Notes under the pieces: model-generated
Seen by the model: the letters and a program-made list of their open reading frames with translations, nothing else
Databases searched by the model: none
Told to the model about the DNA's origin: nothing
Program-made: the position numbers and the translations under genes
Part shown: positions 33,349 to 43,379 of the stretch, in pieces
How the letters are laid out: the number at the start of each line of letters is the position of its first letter
How positions within the stretch are numbered: position 1 is the first letter of the stretch
Assembly: GCA_027306925.1 (NCBI GenBank)
Contig: DAHUXW010000100.1
Location: forward strand, 1-53,855
DNA length: 53,855 bases
Direction: 5' to 3'
From: Acidimicrobiaceae bacterium
GTDB lineage: Bacteria > Actinomycetota > Acidimicrobiia > Acidimicrobiales > Bog-793

Positions 33349-33939
33349 TCAGGACGGACCCGTCGGGGTCTTCGGCACCGACGTCGTGTACGCCGTCGCG
33401 TTGATCGACGCGGTGTAGTTCGCGAAGCTCGAAGCGTTCAGGTTCCCGTTCCCCGACAGCGAGACCGACTGGATCGTGAGGAGGCGGGTCATCTTGTACA
33501 GGTCGGAGATGAAGGCGAGGAGCTGGTCGTGCGGGCCCGACACGGCGAGCGCGACCGGGATCGTCGAGTAGCCGAGACCGCTCGGCTGCACGGAGTCGTC
33601 GGTCACGCTCTGCAGGCTCACGCCGTCGAGCACCGAGAGCCGGTACACCTGCACGACGAGGTCGGGAGCGTCGGGCGTCGACGGGACCGCCGTCGCGAAG
33701 TGCTTCAGGAACGGGGCGGCGGCCTGGACCTGCTTCGCCTCGGCGCGCAGCTGAACGAGGCGGAGGTTGAGCCGCGTCTCGGTCTGCTGCTCGGTGATCT
33801 GCTGCTGGTGGATGCTCGCGAGCTTCGACCCCTCCGGCGTCATCCATGCAAACCACCACGCGAGCGCGAGCGCGAGCACTCCGAGCACGGAGACGAGGAC
33901 GGCGGGTCGGCGGGCGAGGCTACGGCTCGGGGCGCTCAT
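33349..33939 (-). CDS. pilO: PilO-like pilus assembly protein
   Basis: ATG 33939 overlaps the PilM-PilN stop by 4 bp. The 196-residue protein has one membrane helix (about 12-32, VLVSVLGVLALALAWWFAW), a coiled-coil (HQQQITEQQTETRLNLRLVQ) and a ferredoxin-like periplasmic-type domain (DLVVQVYRLSVLDGVSLQSV). This is the PilO fold (inner-membrane alignment complex). PilO pairs with PilN and links the cytosolic PilM ring to the pilus. Position directly after pilM-pilN supports the call. Confidence 0.85.
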   Translation of the reverse strand: MSAPSRSLARRPAVLVSVLGVLALALAWWFAWMTPEGSKLASIHQQQITEQQTETRLNLRLVQLRAEAKQVQAAAPFLKHFATAVPSTPDAPDLVVQVYRLSVLDGVSLQSVTDDSVQPSGLGYSTIPVALAVSGPHDQLLAFISDLYKMTRLLTIQSVSLSGNGNLNASSFANYTASINATAYTTSVPKTPTGPS

Positions 33940-35645
33940 CGCTTCGGCACCTCGAACTCGGCGAGGCGATCGGTGTGGATCGCCCCGGTGACCGCGAGCT
34001 GCGCCGTGAAGCCCACGCCGTGCCCGCTGCTCGACACCCCGGAGTACTGCACGATCTCGAACCTCGCCGATGCCACCATCGCGTCGAACCACTCCTTGAA
34101 CGAGGGATACTGCGGCCCGGAGAACGACAGGCTCACGGTGCCGACGGTGTCGGTGGGTGACGGGAGCGCCGAGGACGGGGCGGCCACGTGACCGGTCGAC
34201 GCGCTCGTCGCCGCCGTCGGCGCGACCGCCGTCGACCCGGAGAACCCGCTCGCGCTCACCGACGCGGGGGTGTACTTCGCGAGCGCCGCGAAAACCGCCG
34301 GCCAGTTCACCTCGTGGCTCACGATCGGCATGCCGATGTGCGAGTCGGCGAAGATCGCGTTGTCCTGCTGCTGGACTCGGTCGTACGCGGGGAGCTGCTT
34401 CTGGAGGTGCGCGATCTCGCCTTCGATGTTGCCGACGCCGTGCTCGGCGTTGCGCACCTGGAGGAAGCGCAGGGCACCTCCGGCCGCGAGCGCGACCACG
34501 GCGACGACCGCCGCGCTCTGGATCGTGCGGGTCGTGCGTGCGCGGCGACGCTCGACGAGGACCTCGGGCGGGAGCAGGTCGAGCGCCTTGCGACCGGCGG
34601 ACTCCGTCATCGCGGCGCCCGCGGCGACCGCGCCGACCGTGTCGGCGTGGATCCGGTCGAAGCTCAGCCGGCCCGTGTCGACGTGCTCGAGCCAGCTCGC
34701 AGTCGTCACGGGGACTCTGACCTGGTACTCGAGGCGCTCGACGAGCCCGGCGAGGCGCGAGCCGCCGCCGGTCACGACGACGCGCGAGACCTCCGGCAGG
34801 CCGGGGAGCGTCGCGAAGTAGTCGATCGAGCTCCGGATCTCGCCGAGCAGCGGCGCCGATCCGTCGCGCGCCGCCGCGACCGCCTCGGCCGGGAGGCGCC
34901 CCGCGTCGGTGGGCGACCAGCCGAGCCGGATCTTGATCTGCTCGGCGTCCGCAGCGGGGATGTCGAGCGCCGCGGAGATCGCTCGCGTGACGGCGTTGCC
35001 GCCGCCGGCGATCGTCCGTACGAAGTGCGGCTCGCCGAGCTCGTGGATCACGATGGTCGTGAGCTCGGCGCCGATGGAGACGATCGCCTCGACACCCGGC
35101 TCCTCGCCCGCGAGCGAGCGAACGAGCGCGGAGGACGCGAGGTCGACGCCCTTCACGACGAGCCCGGACTCCGCGAGCACGCCGACCAGCGGCTCGACGA
35201 GCGCCCGGTGCGCCGCCGCGAGGTGCACGCGGACGAGCTCGGTGCCGTCCGGCGCGGTGACGGTCCCGAGCGTCCGCGCCGACAGCAGCGTCTCCTCCTC
35301 GGGGAAGGGGATGATGTCCAGCGCCTGCAGCCGGACCGCCGCGTCGAGGTCTGCGTCGGGAACGCGCGGCATGACGATCTCGCGGCTGATCGCACGGAGC
35401 CCGGCGACCGCGAGCCAGACTTCGGGCGGTGCGCCGAACCTACTGCGCTCGAGATGTGCGTTCTTCAGGCAGGCGGTGACCGTGCGCTTCACGGCCGACC
35501 GGTCGGCGACCACGCCGTCGGAAACCGCGCCCTTCGGGAGCGCGGCCTCGCCGAAGGCGTGGACCTTCGCGCGCGAGCCGCCGCTCTCGATCTCGACAAT
35601 ACGCACGGAGGTGGCAGCCACCTCGATGCCGATTCGCCGCGTCAC
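33936..35645 (-). CDS. PilM-PilN fusion protein
   Basis: GTG 35645 follows AAGGAGGG. The 569-residue product joins two proteins normally separate. Residues 1-350 are PilM, an actin-like ATPase: GIEVAATSVRIVEI (6-19), ALDIIPFPEEE (108-118), IVSIGAELTTIVIHE (188-202), VVVTGGGSRLAGL (289-301). Residues 355-569 are PilN: RKALDLLPPE (352-361), a version of the INLLP motif by which free PilN docks in PilM, then a membrane helix (375-395), coiled-coil and an alpha/beta domain with LSFSGPQYPSFKEWFDAMV. The fusion would hold PilM and PilN in 1:1 ratio. No separate pilN is present in the operon, so this is the functional copy. Confidence 0.9.
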   Translation of the reverse strand: MTRRIGIEVAATSVRIVEIESGGSRAKVHAFGEAALPKGAVSDGVVADRSAVKRTVTACLKNAHLERSRFGAPPEVWLAVAGLRAISREIVMPRVPDADLDAAVRLQALDIIPFPEEETLLSARTLGTVTAPDGTELVRVHLAAAHRALVEPLVGVLAESGLVVKGVDLASSALVRSLAGEEPGVEAIVSIGAELTTIVIHELGEPHFVRTIAGGGNAVTRAISAALDIPAADAEQIKIRLGWSPTDAGRLPAEAVAAARDGSAPLLGEIRSSIDYFATLPGLPEVSRVVVTGGGSRLAGLVERLEYQVRVPVTTASWLEHVDTGRLSFDRIHADTVGAVAAGAAMTESAGRKALDLLPPEVLVERRRARTTRTIQSAAVVAVVALAAGGALRFLQVRNAEHGVGNIEGEIAHLQKQLPAYDRVQQQDNAIFADSHIGMPIVSHEVNWPAVFAALAKYTPASVSASGFSGSTAVAPTAATSASTGHVAAPSSALPSPTDTVGTVSLSFSGPQYPSFKEWFDAMVASARFEIVQYSGVSSSGHGVGFTAQLAVTGAIHTDRLAEFEVPKR

Positions 35646-35698: not shown

Positions 35699-36946
35699 TT
35701 ACGACGGCTGGAGGAGCTTTACGTAGTCGAACATCGGCAGGTACAAGCTGACGACGATCGCTCCGATGCAGATGCCCATGAACACGATGAGCGCGGGCTC
35801 GAGGAGCGAGGTCAGGCTGCCCACGGTCGCGTCGATCTCGTTGTCGTAGAACTGCGCCACCTTGTCGAGCATGTCGCTCACCGCACCCGACTCCTCGCCG
35901 GTCTCGACCATCTGCAGCACCATCGGCGGGATGATCGGGTGGTCCGCGAGCGTCGAGGCGAGCGACCGGCCGTCGCGCACCCCCGCGATCGCTCCCCGTG
36001 CCGCGTTGCTCACGATGCGGTTGCTCACGTTGTCCGCAGCCATTTCGAGCGACTCGATGATCCCGACCCCGGACGCGAGCAGCGTCCCGAGCGTCGAGAG
36101 CATCCGCGACAGACCGACCTTCAACATCAGCGGACCGAACACGGGCGCGCGCAGCCGGAGGCGGTCCCACGTGAGCCGCCCGCGCTCGGTCGACACCCAC
36201 CAGCGGAGGGCGAACACTGCTCCGACGACGACCGCGACGACCGCGAGCGCCCAGATGCTCGCGACGATGTTCGACGCGCCGATCACGATTCGAGTCGGCA
36301 ACGGAAGCGTCCCGTGCAGGCTGCCGTACAGGTGCTTGAACGTCGGGACGACGAAGATCATCATCGCCGTGATCACGAGGACGACGACGAAGACGACGAC
36401 GACGGGGTAGGTGAACGCGGACCGCACCTTCGAGCGGAGCTCGACCCGCTTCTCGATCGTGGTGGCGAGCTTCAGCAGAACGACGTCGAGCTGACCTCCG
36501 GCCTCCCCCGCACGGACCATCGACACGTAGAGGCGGTCGAAGATCTTCGGGTGCTTCGCGAGCGCGGCGGAGAACGACGTCCCGTGCTCGACCTCGCTGC
36601 GCACCGCGACGAGCGCGGCGCGAAGCGGCTTCGACTCGACCTGCGCCGAGAGGACGGCGATCGCACGCACGAGCGTGAGGCCCGACGCGACCATGGTCGC
36701 GAGCTGGCGGCTCATGACCGAGATCTCCTTCAGGTTCACGCGGTCGCTCAGGCCGGGGATGCGGATTTCGCGGTGGAGGTTGAGCGCGGAGGTCGCCTTG
36801 ATCTCGATCGGCAGGTAGCCCATCTCGCGCAGCCGCGACGCGACGAGCGACTTGTTGTCCGCGTCGATCCTGCCCTTGACGACCTTCCCCGCGTTGTCGC
36901 GTACCCGGTACTCGTACGTCGTGACCGTCATCGTGGCCTCACTCAA
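35699..36946 (-). CDS. pilC: Type IV pilus platform protein
   Basis: GTG 36946 overlaps the preceding stop; ATG 36931 is an alternative. The 415-residue protein has the two GspF domains: residues 75-195 (ISVMSRQLATMVASGLTLVR, then YVSMVRAGEAGGQLDVVLLK) and 275-400 (SRMLSTLGTLLASGVGIIES, then VETGEESGAVSDMLDKVAQF). Three membrane helices include AFTYPVVVVFVVVLVITAMM and the C-terminal LEPALIVFMGICIGAIVVSL. PilC is the inner-membrane platform rotated by PilB and PilT. The N-terminal 55 residues (YEYRVRDNAGKVVKGRI) are also typical. Confidence 0.95.
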   Translation of the reverse strand: MSEATMTVTTYEYRVRDNAGKVVKGRIDADNKSLVASRLREMGYLPIEIKATSALNLHREIRIPGLSDRVNLKEISVMSRQLATMVASGLTLVRAIAVLSAQVESKPLRAALVAVRSEVEHGTSFSAALAKHPKIFDRLYVSMVRAGEAGGQLDVVLLKLATTIEKRVELRSKVRSAFTYPVVVVFVVVLVITAMMIFVVPTFKHLYGSLHGTLPLPTRIVIGASNIVASIWALAVVAVVVGAVFALRWWVSTERGRLTWDRLRLRAPVFGPLMLKVGLSRMLSTLGTLLASGVGIIESLEMAADNVSNRIVSNAARGAIAGVRDGRSLASTLADHPIIPPMVLQMVETGEESGAVSDMLDKVAQFYDNEIDATVGSLTSLLEPALIVFMGICIGAIVVSLYLPMFDYVKLLQPS

Positions 36947-38724
36947 CCCTTCAGGTAGTCGAGCAGCTGCTTCGGGTCGTGCGCGCGGTCGAAGGCGACG
37001 GTCTCGCTGATCTTGCGGTCACGGACGGCCTCCGCCAACGCCTGGTCCATCGTCTGCATTCCGCTCGAGCCGCCGGTCTGCATCAGGGAGTAGATCTGGT
37101 GGGTCTTCGACGAGCGAATGAGGTTGCGGATCGCGGGCGTGCAGACCATCACCTCGGCGACGGGCACGCGACCGACCCCGCCCTCGGCGATGACGAGCTG
37201 CTGGGTGACGACCGCCTCGAGCGCGCCGGCGAGCTGGACGCGCACCTGGTCCTGCTGGTTGGTCGGGAAGACGTCGACGATCCGGTCGATCGTCTGCGGC
37301 GCGTCCTGCGTGTGCAGGGTCGCGAACACGAGGTGGCCGGTCTCGGCCGCCGTGAGCGCGGTCGAGATCGTCTCGAGATCCCTCATCTCGCCGACGAGGA
37401 TGACGTCGGGGTCCTGGCGGAGCACGTGCCGCAGGCACTCGGCGAACGACGACGTGTCCTGCCCGACCTCGCGCTGGTTCACGATCGAGCGCTTGTGCTC
37501 GTGGTGGAACTCGATCGGGTCCTCGACGGTCATGATGTGGAGCGGCTTCGTCGCGTTGATGCGGTCGACGACCGCGGCGAGCGTCGTGGACTTGCCCGAG
37601 CCCGTCGGACCGGTGAGGAGCACGAGACCGCGCCGGAGGTCGGCGAACGACGAGATCGCCCGCGGCAGGTCGAGCGACTCGAGCGTCGGCACGCCGGGCG
37701 GGATGGTGCGGAAGACCGCGCCGACCGAACCGCGCTGCTGGAACACCGACAGACGGAACCGGCCCACGTCGGGGATCTCGTAGGAGGTGTCGAGCTCCTT
37801 CGAGGCCTCGTAGCGCTCCCGCACCGACTGGGGCAGGATCTGGAAGATCATGTCCCGCAGCACGAGCGGCTCGATGGGCTCGAGATCCTCGATCGGCCGG
37901 ATCGAGCCGTCGATTCGCACGGCCGGCGCGAATCGCGCCGCGAGGTGCAGGTCGGATGCGCCGTGCTCGACGGCGAAGACGAGCAGGTCGTTCACGTCGC
38001 TCGCGAACGGCCGCCCGAACGGGCCCGGGCGGCGGTCCGACGGCGCGGGACCGGACGGATCCGAGCGATCGGGCACGGGAGCCGGCCCGAGGTCGAGGAC
38101 GACCCGCGTCGAGGGCGAGTCCTTTTCGGCACCGCGGCCGTTCGCCGCCGAACCGGCCTCGAGCGGCCCGCCGTAGGGCGCCGAGGCTGCGGACGGCTGC
38201 ACCTCACGAGGTGCAGCACGCGTCAGTAGCTTCACCGAATCCTCCTCGTCGCCCATGCGCGTGCCCGTCGGGGATCCACCGTGCGCAATGAGCCTGTCGA
38301 TCACGACCGGGTCCGCGAGAACGCACCCGGCGATCCCGCAGTCGAGCGCCGAGGCGATCGACTGCAGGTGGTCCGCGGCAAGCGGCTCGGAGCACGCGAG
38401 CACGAGATAGCCGTCCTCGAGCCGCTGTCCGATCGCCCGGTGGTAGCGCGCGACCGCGAGCGGGACCGCGGCCGCGGCTGCGAGCGTCGGAGGGTCGCTT
38501 TCGAGGTCCACGGCGCGAAGACCGGAGATCGCCGACAGGCACTCGAGCGCCTCGGCGCTGTCGACGATCCCGTCGTGCGCGAGCAGGATCGCGACGGGTG
38601 TGCCGCTCGCGGCGCTGCGCGCGAGCGCGGCGCGCGCCGCGTCGGCGTCGAGCCGGCCGCTCGAGACGAGGGCCTCGGCGAGGCGCCGGGACCATTCCGA
38701 GACCGGAGTCGTTGCAATGCTCAT
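36943..38724 (-). CDS. pilT: PilT-type retraction ATPase with N-terminal MshEN-like domain
   Basis: ATG 38724 follows AAGGTGG. The 593-residue product is much longer than PilT (about 350-370). Residues 14-146 resemble an MshEN/GspE N-terminal domain: LAEALVSSGRLDADAARAAL, then GTPVAILLAHDGIVDSAEAL and DGYLVLACSEPL. A Pro/Ser-rich linker follows (about 160-240), then PilT: ASDLHLAARFAPAVRIDG (256-273), Walker A GPTGSGKST (372-380), HIMTVEDPIEF, DPDVILVGEMRD (Walker B), and AIRNLIRSSKTHQIYSLMQT, the PilT-specific signature. MshEN domains bind c-di-GMP in PilB/MshE-type ATPases; their presence on a retraction motor is unusual and suggests direct signalling input. It lies between pilB and pilC. 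Confidence 0.88.
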   Translation of the reverse strand: MSIATTPVSEWSRRLAEALVSSGRLDADAARAALARSAASGTPVAILLAHDGIVDSAEALECLSAISGLRAVDLESDPPTLAAAAAVPLAVARYHRAIGQRLEDGYLVLACSEPLAADHLQSIASALDCGIAGCVLADPVVIDRLIAHGGSPTGTRMGDEEDSVKLLTRAAPREVQPSAASAPYGGPLEAGSAANGRGAEKDSPSTRVVLDLGPAPVPDRSDPSGPAPSDRRPGPFGRPFASDVNDLLVFAVEHGASDLHLAARFAPAVRIDGSIRPIEDLEPIEPLVLRDMIFQILPQSVRERYEASKELDTSYEIPDVGRFRLSVFQQRGSVGAVFRTIPPGVPTLESLDLPRAISSFADLRRGLVLLTGPTGSGKSTTLAAVVDRINATKPLHIMTVEDPIEFHHEHKRSIVNQREVGQDTSSFAECLRHVLRQDPDVILVGEMRDLETISTALTAAETGHLVFATLHTQDAPQTIDRIVDVFPTNQQDQVRVQLAGALEAVVTQQLVIAEGGVGRVPVAEVMVCTPAIRNLIRSSKTHQIYSLMQTGGSSGMQTMDQALAEAVRDRKISETVAFDRAHDPKQLLDYLKG

Positions 38725-38767: not shown

Positions 38768-41215
38768 TCATACGATCACCCTCAGGATCTCCTCGAGGCT
38801 CGTGAGCCCCATCGCGGCCTTGCGAAGGCCGTCGCGGTGAAGCGTCGTCATCCCTTCGAATATCGCGAGGCGCTTGATGTCCTCGGTCGACGCGCGCGCG
38901 AGGATCGCCCGCTCGACCTCCTCGGTGACAGGCATGACCTCCTGGACCGCGAGCCGGCCCCGATAGCCGGTTCCGCTGCACGCCTGGCAACCGACCGCTC
39001 GGCGGAACTGGAGCTCGCCTGACTCGGGCGCGTCGGCCTCGACCCAGCGCGACGCGATGAGCTCCTGCTGGGTCGGCTCGTACGGCTCGGCGCAGACGTC
39101 GCACAGCAGCCGCGCGAGCCGCTGCGCGAGCACGCAGTCGAGCGCCGAGCAGACGAGGAAGGGCTCGACGCCCATCTCGATGAGCCGCAGCGGCGTGCTC
39201 GCTGCGTCGTTCGTGTGAAGGCACGTGAGCACGAGGTGGCCGGTGAGCGCGGCCTCGATCGCGATCGTCGCGGTCTCACGGTCGCGGATCTCGCCGACGA
39301 GCACGATGTCGGGGTCGGAACGCAGGATCGACCGGAGCGCGCTCGCGAAGCTGAGGCCGGCGCGCGGGTTGACCTGCACCTGGTTCACGCCTCGCAGCTG
39401 GTACTCGACGGGGTCCTCGACCGTGATCAGGTTCCGCTCGGGCAAGTTGAGCTTGTTCAGCGTCGCGTACAGCGTCGTCGACTTCCCCGACCCCGTCGGA
39501 CCGGTCACGAGGATCGTCCCGGACGGCTTCTTGTACGACTCCTCGTAGCGGGAGAGGACCTCGGGCAGGAAGCCGAGGCGCGCGAGGTCGAGCGGCGCGG
39601 TCGACTTGTCGAGCACCCGGAGGACGACCTTCTCGCCGTGCACGGTCGGGAGCGTCGCGACGCGCAGGTCGATCTCGCGCGCGCTCGCGGTGAGCGACAG
39701 GCGTCCGTCCTGGGGGACCCGGTGCTCGGCGATGTCGAGGTCGGCCATGATCTTGAGACGGGAGATCACGCCGCCCTGGATGGACTTCGGGGCGCTCGTC
39801 ACGTGGTGGAGCACGCCGTCGATCCGGAAGCGCACCTGCAGGTCGTCCGAGCTCGGCTCGACGTGGACGTCCGAGGCCCGCTCGTTGAGCGCCTGGCGCA
39901 GGATGAGGTTCACGAACTTCACGATCGGCGCGTCCTCGACGACCGCGTGGAGGTCGTTGAGCTCGCCGAACTGCGTCGCCTCGGAGGCGGCCGCCGAGAG
40001 TGCGGCGTTGCGCGCCGCGACGTTCGCCTCCTCGTTGTGCCGGTAGGTCCGCGACAGGTAGTCCTCGACCTGCTGCGCCGTGCAGATGACCGTGACAACC
40101 TCTCGGCCGAGCAGCGTCCGGACGTCGTCGAGCGCGAACACGTCGGACGGGTTGACCATCGCGATGATCGGACGGTCGCCGCGGAAGCCGATCGCGATGA
40201 TCCGATACCGGCGCGCGAGCGACTCGGGGAGCAGCTGCGCGGCGACCGGGTCGATCGCCCAGTTGTTCAGGTCGACGAACTCGATGCCCTCGACGAGCGC
40301 GACCGCTCGTTGCAGGTCGGCCTCGCTCACGATGCCGAGCTCCGCGATGATCTCGCGCAGCGAACGGCCCGACGACTGCTGATGGCGCAGCGCGACCTCG
40401 AGGTCCGCCGCGCTGACCGCACCGGCATCGAGAAGGACCTGTTCGAGCGCTGGCTTCGGCCCGCTGAGGTCCACGGGCGCGACGAGGTCGTCCGGCTCGT
40501 CGAACAGCGCGCCGGGCGCGAGGGCGCTCGCGTCCGCCCCGCCGGGCTCGACCGTCGCGACGACGTCGAGGTCGCCACCGTCGGCCAAGGCGCCGGTCGT
40601 CGCCGCCTCGACCTCGGGGGCGTCCTGCACCGTGCCCTCGGTGGGCTCGTCCGAGATCACCTCGCCGCCGGCTTCGCCGGGCGCGGCCTCGCCGACGCCG
40701 GGGACAGCCGCGCTCCCCGCCGTCCAGTCGTCGAGGCCGTCCGCGCCCGTCGGCACGAGCTCGGCGGGTCCCGCTGCCGCAGCGGGACGCCTCGCACCGG
40801 TCGTGGTCGGTGACGCCGTGCCGCGCTTCGGGCTGTTCGCGTAGACGCGATCGATCCAGCGGTCGATCTGGATGCCGCTCGCGACCACGATGTGCACGTC
40901 CCGCCCAGCGGCGAGGTAGATGTCGTCGAGCAGGAACAGGTCCTCGGGGGTCGCGACCGCGACGACGGGCAGCCCGTAGCGCCAGCCGACGGCGACCGCG
41001 CGGTCGCGGCGCGACCGGTCCTCCGGGAGCACGTCCGCCGACGTCGGGTCGAGCTCGAACATCTCGAGGTCGACGAAGTCGAAGCCGGCCTGGATCGCGG
41101 CCTGCCGCGCGCGGGCGATGTCCTCGGCGAGGAGCGTCGCGTCGGCGTCGTCGGAGGCGAAGGTCACTGCCGGGAACTCCGCCTCGACGACGTCCTCGTC
41201 CGCCATGGACACCAT
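38768..41215 (-). CDS. pilB: Type IV pilus extension ATPase
   Basis: ATG 41215 has GGAG upstream; an ATG at 41206 also fits. The 815-residue PilB is longer than usual (about 560-570) because it has two MshEN-like regions: residues 20-125 (degenerate, lacking the first helix motif) and 255-392 (LEQVLLDAGAVSAADLEVAL, then LREIIAELGIVSEADLQRAV), separated by an acidic linker (130-250). The ATPase has Walker A GPTGSGKST (572-580), NLITVEDPVEYQLRGVNQVQ, the Walker B and His boxes (DPDIVLVGEIRDRETA, HTNDAAST) and the tetra-Cys zinc site CDVC...CQAC. It powers pilus assembly. It is the first gene of the minus-strand operon. Confidence 0.95.
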   Translation of the reverse strand: MVSMADEDVVEAEFPAVTFASDDADATLLAEDIARARQAAIQAGFDFVDLEMFELDPTSADVLPEDRSRRDRAVAVGWRYGLPVVAVATPEDLFLLDDIYLAAGRDVHIVVASGIQIDRWIDRVYANSPKRGTASPTTTGARRPAAAAGPAELVPTGADGLDDWTAGSAAVPGVGEAAPGEAGGEVISDEPTEGTVQDAPEVEAATTGALADGGDLDVVATVEPGGADASALAPGALFDEPDDLVAPVDLSGPKPALEQVLLDAGAVSAADLEVALRHQQSSGRSLREIIAELGIVSEADLQRAVALVEGIEFVDLNNWAIDPVAAQLLPESLARRYRIIAIGFRGDRPIIAMVNPSDVFALDDVRTLLGREVVTVICTAQQVEDYLSRTYRHNEEANVAARNAALSAAASEATQFGELNDLHAVVEDAPIVKFVNLILRQALNERASDVHVEPSSDDLQVRFRIDGVLHHVTSAPKSIQGGVISRLKIMADLDIAEHRVPQDGRLSLTASAREIDLRVATLPTVHGEKVVLRVLDKSTAPLDLARLGFLPEVLSRYEESYKKPSGTILVTGPTGSGKSTTLYATLNKLNLPERNLITVEDPVEYQLRGVNQVQVNPRAGLSFASALRSILRSDPDIVLVGEIRDRETATIAIEAALTGHLVLTCLHTNDAASTPLRLIEMGVEPFLVCSALDCVLAQRLARLLCDVCAEPYEPTQQELIASRWVEADAPESGELQFRRAVGCQACSGTGYRGRLAVQEVMPVTEEVERAILARASTEDIKRLAIFEGMTTLHRDGLRKAAMGLTSLEEILRVIV

Positions 41216-41454
41216 CAACGCTCCGCCACGCGGCACGGCCCGTCCACGGGCGACGCGATCGACCGGCGGGCGCGTGTCGAGACGAGGGCCGCGGTACCAC
41301 GGGTCGGCACCGGCGCCGCGTAGTAGCGTCGCCGCGGCACGCTCGGCGTCTGCTCGACAACAAGGGACACTGTGCGCCTCCTGGAGATGTTGACGGCAGT
41401 TCCGGGCTGCGGATTGAACGCGAACTCGCCTCCGCCGGACCGGACGGCACCCCG
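41216..41454. promoter_or_regulatory. Divergent intergenic region between pilB and the prepilin peptidase gene
   Basis: This 239-bp gap must hold the promoters of the main pilus operon (minus) and the peptidase gene (plus). An AT-richer stretch with TTGACG at about 41392 and a weak GATTGA 16 bp downstream could be the plus-strand promoter. I see no confident minus-strand promoter and no riboswitch. Confidence 0.35.
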
Positions 41455-42281: not shown

Positions 42282-43379
42282 TCAGCCGAGGACCGACTGG
42301 GCCATCCCCTGGCGCTGCAGCATGATGCGCAGATCGTGCGAGTTGGGCGCCGAGGCGATCGCGGCCTCGACGTCGATGGCCCCCTCGCGGAGCAGGCCGA
42401 CGAGGGACTGCGCGAACGTCTGCATCCCGTAGTAGTCGCCCTCGGCCACGATCTCGGCGATGTTGCTCGTGTGCACGGGCTCGACGATGCACTGCTGGAT
42501 CCGGCCGTTCACGACCATGATCTCGAGCGCGGGCACGCGCCCGGAACCGTCCGCGGTCGTGACGAGGCGCTGGCAGATCGTGCCCCGCAGCGCGCCCGCG
42601 AGCGAGAGCCGGGCCTGGCGCTGCTGGCTCGGAGGGAAGAAGTCGATGATCCGGTTCACCGTCTCGACCGAGTCGCCCGTGTGCAGCGTCGAGAGCACGA
42701 GGTGCCCCGTCTCGGCGGCCGTGAGCGCGGTCTCGACCGTCTCGGGGTCGCGCATCTCGCCGACGAGGATGACGTCGGGATCCTCGCGCAGCGCCGAGCG
42801 AAGCGCGACGTTGAAGTTGTCGGTGTCGAATCCGACCTCCCGCTGGCTGATCGACGCGAGGTTGTCCCGGTGCAGCACCTCGATCGGGTCCTCGATCGTC
42901 ACGATGTGGCACTCGCGCGTCTTGTTCAGGTGGTCGATCATCGCGGCGAGCGTCGTCGTCTTGCCGCACCCGGTCGGTCCGGTCACGAGCACGATCCCGC
43001 GCGGCTCCTCCGCGAGCCGGCGCACGGCGTCCGGCAGGCCGAGCTCGGCGAGCGTCTGGGTTCCGGGCCGGACGTGACGGAAGACCATCGACACGGTGCC
43101 GCGCTGGCGGAACGCGTTGACACGGAAGCGGCCGAGCTGGGAGACCGAGTACGCGAAGTCGGCCTCCGACGACACCTCGAACCGCTGCCACACGCGCTCG
43201 TGCATGATCGCCTTCGCGAGCTCCTCGAGGTCGCCGCCGTCGATGACCCGCTGGTCCGTCATCCGGCGCAGGACGCCGTTCACGCGCATGCGCGGCGGCG
43301 AGCCGGCCTTGACGTGAAGGTCGGAGCCCTCCGCCTTCACGAGCTTGCCCAGGACCGCGTCCAGATCGTGCTGATCCAT
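42282..43379 (-). CDS. Second PilT-type ATPase
   Basis: ATG 43379 follows GAGGAGG. The 365-residue protein has standard PilT length: AEGSDLHVKAGSPPRMRVNG (16-35), Walker A GPTGCGKTT (134-142), HIVTIEDPIEVLHRDNLASI, the Walker B DPDVILVGEMRDPET, and the His box STLHTGDSVETVNRIID. The C-terminal part lacks the AIRNLIR signature of classical PilT; at that position it has NGRIQQCIVEPVHTSNIAEI. Similar divergent forms occur next to T4P loci in other actinobacteria. It could be a PilU-like auxiliary motor. It lies outside the main operon, beyond the prepilin peptidase gene. Confidence 0.9.
   Translation of the reverse strand: MDQHDLDAVLGKLVKAEGSDLHVKAGSPPRMRVNGVLRRMTDQRVIDGGDLEELAKAIMHERVWQRFEVSSEADFAYSVSQLGRFRVNAFRQRGTVSMVFRHVRPGTQTLAELGLPDAVRRLAEEPRGIVLVTGPTGCGKTTTLAAMIDHLNKTRECHIVTIEDPIEVLHRDNLASISQREVGFDTDNFNVALRSALREDPDVILVGEMRDPETVETALTAAETGHLVLSTLHTGDSVETVNRIIDFFPPSQQRQARLSLAGALRGTICQRLVTTADGSGRVPALEIMVVNGRIQQCIVEPVHTSNIAEIVAEGDYYGMQTFAQSLVGLLREGAIDVEAAIASAPNSHDLRIMLQRQGMAQSVLG

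Follow-up and report, generated by a model that had tools for sequence, protein, structure and literature searches.

The window, by which we mean the whole stretch of 53,855 nucleotides of Acidimicrobiaceae DNA analysed here, carries on its minus strand a type IV pilus operon in which the retraction ATPase PilT has a true MshEN domain at its N-terminus. The presence of this domain on a PilT-type motor is confirmed, and most of the residues through which MshEN domains contact c-di-GMP are gone from it. The reading that we favour, at a probability of about one half, is that MshEN and PilT were fused long ago, that the fusion protein then served as a c-di-GMP receptor, and that the window's lineage would have retained it as a module for docking. 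The features on which the discussion is based are the following.

36943..38724, minus strand: pilT1, MshEN-linker-PilT fusion, 593 aa (intact ORF; TIGR01420 465 bits; Pfam MshEN 31.7 bits)
38278..38697, minus strand: MshEN/GSPII-type N-terminal domain, aa 10-149 (AlphaFold pLDDT 91.3; Foldseek PDB; Pfam PF05157)
38614..38685, minus strand: degenerate c-di-GMP motif I, RLAEALVSSGRLDADAARAALARS, aa 14-37 (consensus alignment: Gly3 to Ala, Leu17 to Ala, Gln24 to Ser)
38527..38598, minus strand: degenerate c-di-GMP motif II, PVAILLAHDGIVDSAEALECLSAI, aa 43-66 (consensus alignment: Arg1 to Pro, Leu2 to Val, Gly3 to Ala, Leu17 to Ala, Gln24 to Ile)
37999..38277, minus strand: linker of 93 residues rich in Pro/Gly/Ala/Ser, aa 150-242 (composition)
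36970..37995, minus strand: PilT motor core, aa 244-585 (TIGR01420; PilT 6ojx, E 1.3e-109)
37585..37611, minus strand: Walker A GPTGSGKST, aa 372-380 (sequence)
37114..37134, minus strand: PilT signature AIRNLIR, aa 531-537 (sequence)
38768..41236, minus strand: pilB extension ATPase, 822 aa, two CxxC pairs (TIGR02538 629.5 bits)
40031-40288 and 40835-41086, minus strand: pilB MshEN matches, one full and one partial (profile match)
35699..36946, minus strand: pilC platform protein, 4-base overlap with pilT1 (Pfam T2SSF 207.6 bits)
33936..35645, minus strand: pilM, 569 aa with a C-terminal transmembrane extension, possible partner for docking (Pfam PilM_2, aa 6-346; TM-like segment)
42282..43379, minus strand: second PilT/PilU-family ATPase, without MshEN and without AIRNLIR (TIGR01420 437.6 bits; sequence)

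The motor and its operon

The intact pilT1 frame matches TIGR01420, the PilT/PilU family model, over aa 244-585 with 465.2 bits, the cut-off being 319.1. The first-pass annotation had called the product a PilT on account of the PilT-specific AIRNLIR, and both the family score and the signature at aa 531-537 bear this out. Judged from its sequence, the product is a type IVa pilus retraction ATPase, with retraction as its predicted function. It shares with known PilT (TIGR01420; Geobacter PilT 6OJX and Aquifex PilT 2GSZ) the motor core from end to end, the Walker A/B motifs (Walker A at aa 372-380), AIRNLIR, the absence of a zinc motif, and an operon with pilB and pilC. However, known PilT begins at N2D, while in the pilT1 product MshEN and the 93-residue linker stand ahead of it. 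A published criterion for PilT, which lies outside the TIGR01420 model itself, is that it has no N1D/MshEN; the pilT1 product has one, and we accordingly class this product as a variant rather than a typical PilT.

A gap of 43 bases separates pilT1 from pilB ahead of it, its end shares 4 bases with pilC, and PilM and PilO come after pilC. On the other side, the cluster contains a prepilin peptidase and the second PilT-family gene, which lacks both MshEN and AIRNLIR; its product (42282-43379, minus strand) reads GRIQQCIVE where AIRNLIR is expected and falls in an actinobacterial side clade of the core tree. The PilM of the window (33936-35645, minus strand) matches its family over aa 6-346 and continues with a TM-like segment and some 180 residues without a Pfam match, a GspL-like layout that is the same in most relatives.

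The fold of the N-terminal domain

The first-pass annotation had proposed an MshEN-like N-terminal domain, which is confirmed. Pfam MshEN (PF05157) matches aa 68-148 with 31.7 bits (cut-off 23.1), and a profile built from the PilT N-domains finds the N-domains of PilB, PilF, MshE and XpsE in the PDB, with E values down to 1.7e-60. An AlphaFold2 model of aa 1-165, made from a 24-row alignment, has a mean pLDDT of 91.3 and a pTM of 0.81, and shows a four-helix bundle, behind which comes an alpha/beta subdomain. All 20 Foldseek matches to the PDB at E <= 1e-3 were found to be MshEN/GSPII domains, the best global fit being GSPII-A of PilF (9g1w, TM 0.70), with MshE (5htl_B) at TM 0.60.

The predicted domain is thus built like the MshEN/GSPII domains of MshE, PilB and Thermus PilF (5HTL, 8PDK, 9G1W), with the same two subdomains and the same tandem of 24-residue motifs separated by a 5-residue spacer. 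It differs from them in sitting on a retraction motor and in having only 4 of 12 c-di-GMP contacts left, and by global fold it is nearest to GSPII-A, a non-binder.

The c-di-GMP site in the window

The c-di-GMP consensus consists of two copies of (R/K/L)LGxx(LVI)(LVI)xxG(LVI)(LVI)xxxxLxxxLxxQ with a 5-residue spacer (PMC5013675, PMC11731258). The LxxxLxxQ spacing was taken from the 24-residue relaxed pattern (PMC5013675), and ligand contacts were scored at positions 1, 2, 3, 17, 21 and 24 of each motif, 12 in total. In the window PilT, RLAEALVSSGRLDADAARAALARS and PVAILLAHDGIVDSAEALECLSAI lie in register at aa 14-37 and 43-66, exactly at the published 24+5+24 spacing, and meet 7/11 and 5/11 consensus positions, respectively. 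Only 4/12 contacts are kept. Arg1 and Leu2 remain in motif I; Gly3 and Leu17 are replaced by Ala in both motifs, and Gln24 by Ser in motif I and Ile in motif II. Of the two patterns that had been suggested for checking the alignment, RLxx[L/A]Lxx.G occurs once, as RLAEALVSSG, while L..aL..Q occurs in neither copy.

For comparison, 6/12 contacts are kept by PilF GSPII-A, which did not bind c-di-GMP when measured (PMC11731258), 8 by GSPII-C, 10 by Myxococcus PilB, and all 12 by GSPII-B, which binds at 6 nM (PMC11731258); known binders keep 8-12. Mutants of MshE and PilF provide a further scale. G11I abolishes binding by MshE (PMC5013675), and binding is lost in the PilF double mutant Q190E+Q218E, while the single mutants still bind (Q190E 950 nM, Q218E 460 nM) and GSPII-B binds although Arg is missing from its motif (PMC11731258). 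Since binders tolerate a few deviations from the motif, weak c-di-GMP binding by the window PilT is possible. A search with NF053729, the curated NCBIfam c-di-GMP motif model (c-di-GMP_motif, cut-off 38), gave no match in the window PilT. The most likely interpretation of these alignments is that the site has decayed in this protein with the fold kept.

The MshEN of the window PilB is eroded as well: it keeps 6/12 contacts and barely reaches NF053729 (38.5 against the cut-off of 38). The PilBs of the window's family keep 3-7 of the 12, most other PilBs 7-11. Of the idea that the two motors share one type of input, the fold, present on both, is supported, and the ligand contacts, eroded in PilT (4/12) and PilB (6/12), are not. 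The same PilB has an additional, partial MshEN match near its N-terminus (40835-41086, minus strand), which seems to be the C-terminal subdomain alone, the 24-residue motifs being absent.

The 170 contigs of the genome, 2.87 Mb in total, contain only three MshEN matches; all lie in this operon, PilB having two of them and PilT the third. With 24 GGDEF, 24 EAL and 2 PilZ matches genome-wide, the organism very probably makes c-di-GMP.

Distribution and history of the fusion

In a set of 60 relatives, the window's family shows the fusion, and so do many further families of its order; the gene order pilB-pilT(MshEN)-pilC is seen in the window and in 20/20 related loci fetched. In a class sample of 100 genomes, 35 have a close PilT; of 30 class PilT loci that were read, 28 show the MshEN profile, one shows it partially, and one is Pro-rich without it. 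The phylum sample adds one family of another class, called f41 here, with the full-length fusion in 3/5 genomes and a fourth copy cut by a contig end. A Rubrobacter MAG also has an MshEN-PilT, on one contig, which could be contamination. The survey of PilT homologues called for by the first-pass annotation thus shows that the domain recurs, in 28/30 class loci and in f41. Across many phyla, only two of 134 PilT-family ORFs from 80 named loci carry the fusion (L056, from Acidimicrobiaceae, and L057), and the surveyed PilTs of Pseudomonadota, Bacillota, Cyanobacteriota and others start at the motor core, with no MshEN.

Many assemblies show the fusion independently of one another, so that it is due neither to chance nor to misassembly. 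Contamination or misassembly as its source was considered and rejected on the basis of the same gene order in 21 loci.

The tree of PilT cores unites the 32 Acidimicrobiia-type proteins in a single clade (SH-aLRT 97); the f41 and Rubrobacter proteins lie near it, and L056 falls inside the window's PilT clade, which suggests an Acidimicrobiales-like order for the window. In the tree of N-domains, the PilT MshENs stand apart from the PilB MshENs, those of the same operons included. We have also considered a recent copy of the adjoining pilB domain, which is rejected, as PilT and PilB MshENs of the same genome do not group. A single clade of PilT MshENs is not rejected (p-AU 0.81; the 147 columns make this a weak test), and in the free tree from the same 147 columns the Rubrobacter domain lands among the PilBs. 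A single ancient fusion with losses afterwards fits best.

The site in relatives

The domain is retained throughout the window's clade (18 proteins), with 1-4 of 12 contacts, and in 18/18 Gly3 is absent from both motifs. The other families of the order keep 6-8 contacts and f41 7-9. NF053729 scores the f41 PilT N-domains at 64.4, 69.5 and 68.8 (cut-off 38); among other PilTs, L139 lies above the cut-off (40.6), and L031 (37.8), L033 (33.2), L057 (31.6) and the Rubrobacter protein fall below it. By these sequence measures the site is near-canonical in f41 and decayed in the window's lineage, and most of the window's class stands between the two with a half-kept site.

The scores of 64-70 make a c-di-GMP-binding retraction motor plausible in f41. 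The suggestion that c-di-GMP acts directly on the retraction motor is not supported for the window PilT and survives for f41. We consider it possible, at somewhat less than an even chance, that in some Actinomycetota (those of f41 and perhaps some members of the window's class) the retraction motor binds c-di-GMP via MshEN, gating retraction directly, and that the window's lineage later lost this input in both motors and reused the domain for docking.

We have also examined whether the site is decayed where PilM is fused to a membrane segment. This was dropped, as the relative L202 has a better-kept PilT motif together with the PilM fusion; in this comparison two other relatives run off the fetched stretch.

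Role of the domain

In the scenario that we favour, PilT would have gained its N-terminal MshEN/GSPII domain at an early point in the evolution of some of the Actinomycetota, probably with a c-di-GMP site, which in the window's lineage would have decayed in both PilT and PilB with retention of the fold. The domain would now most likely act as a docking or coupling module on the flexible 93-residue linker. Its target could be the stator (PilM with its membrane-anchored extension) or an adaptor, for example a PilZ-family protein, and the same kind of dock would then serve both motors at the PilC platform.

The docking role is argued from precedent. The MshEN-like domain of X. citri PilB, which lacks the c-di-GMP residues, docks PilZ, and the N-domains of GspE/EpsE dock GspL/EpsL, a paralogue of PilM (PMC8389850). 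The X. citri domain bound to PilZ (7LKO) resembles that of pilT1 in having an MshEN-like fold without the c-di-GMP residues and, if the proposed role holds, in serving as a protein-docking site; it sits on an extension motor, while pilT1 encodes a retraction motor.

Another option is that the N-domain is a relic without a present role. It evolves faster than the core, with 30-53% identity against ca 67-76% in the family when the match covers the core alone, so that relaxed constraint would fit too, and the domain is absent elsewhere in the phylum. We nevertheless regard this as unlikely, given that the frame is open in 18/18 clade proteins and the predicted fold has a pLDDT of 91.

The pocket could instead have been remodelled for another small ligand, a different nucleotide. 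The fold is kept family-wide although the c-di-GMP contacts changed, and the clade has some substitutions in common, among them, in motif II, Pro at position 1 and Val or Ile at position 2. However, neither a candidate ligand nor a conserved new polar pocket was found, and the pocket residues differ within the family, which makes this option quite improbable.

Direct control of the window PilT by c-di-GMP bound to its MshEN, as the first-pass annotation had envisaged, is very unlikely. The retained fold and spacing, Arg1 and Leu2 of motif I, the plentiful GGDEF/EAL matches and the near-canonical motifs of the f41 relatives would all suit it. Against this stand a contact count below that of GSPII-A, the loss of Gly3 twice and of both Gln24, each paralleled by a mutation that abolishes binding (MshE G11I, PMC5013675; PilF Q190E+Q218E, PMC11731258), and the missing NF053729 match. 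The annotation had itself named absent ligand-binding residues as evidence to the contrary, and they are mostly gone.

Finally, that the product is really an extension ATPase mis-called PilT, as an N1D domain would otherwise typically point to an extension ATPase (PMC11656802), is next to impossible in view of the 465 bits with TIGR01420 against 169.6 with the PilB model, the presence of AIRNLIR, the zinc CxxC pairs (none here, two in the adjoining PilB), the complete separate PilB next to it, PilT motors as the closest solved structures by sequence (6ojx), and its place among PilT in the core tree.

Implications

A 2024 review separates extension from retraction ATPases by the N-terminal GSPII domain (PMC11656802), and the founding MshE paper considered c-di-GMP regulation of PilT unlikely, as PilT is without the domain (PMC4624772). 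In the open-access literature, which the search covered, we found no MshEN or GSPII described on PilT; such proteins may stand in domain databases without comment. The class-wide MshEN-PilT architecture breaks the published rule. It also offers a natural series, from the near-canonical site of f41 through half-sites to the decayed site of the window, in which the contribution of c-di-GMP binding to the motor can be told apart from that of docking. The strongest version, a c-di-GMP-gated retraction motor, concerns f41 and not the window protein.

Other N-terminal additions to PilT were also observed. The PilTs of Cellulomonas, Curtobacterium, Frigoribacterium and Leifsonia (L060, L069, L070, L071) have long Pro/Ala-rich extensions in which no domain was recognisable. 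Those of a Coriobacteriia MAG (L062:4320-6062) and of Actinobacteria UBA6100 (L063:4257-6053) begin with a response-regulator receiver domain, with Pfam Response_reg scores of 59.2 and 49.7 bits (cut-off 30.2), a sensory domain of a second kind on a retraction motor.
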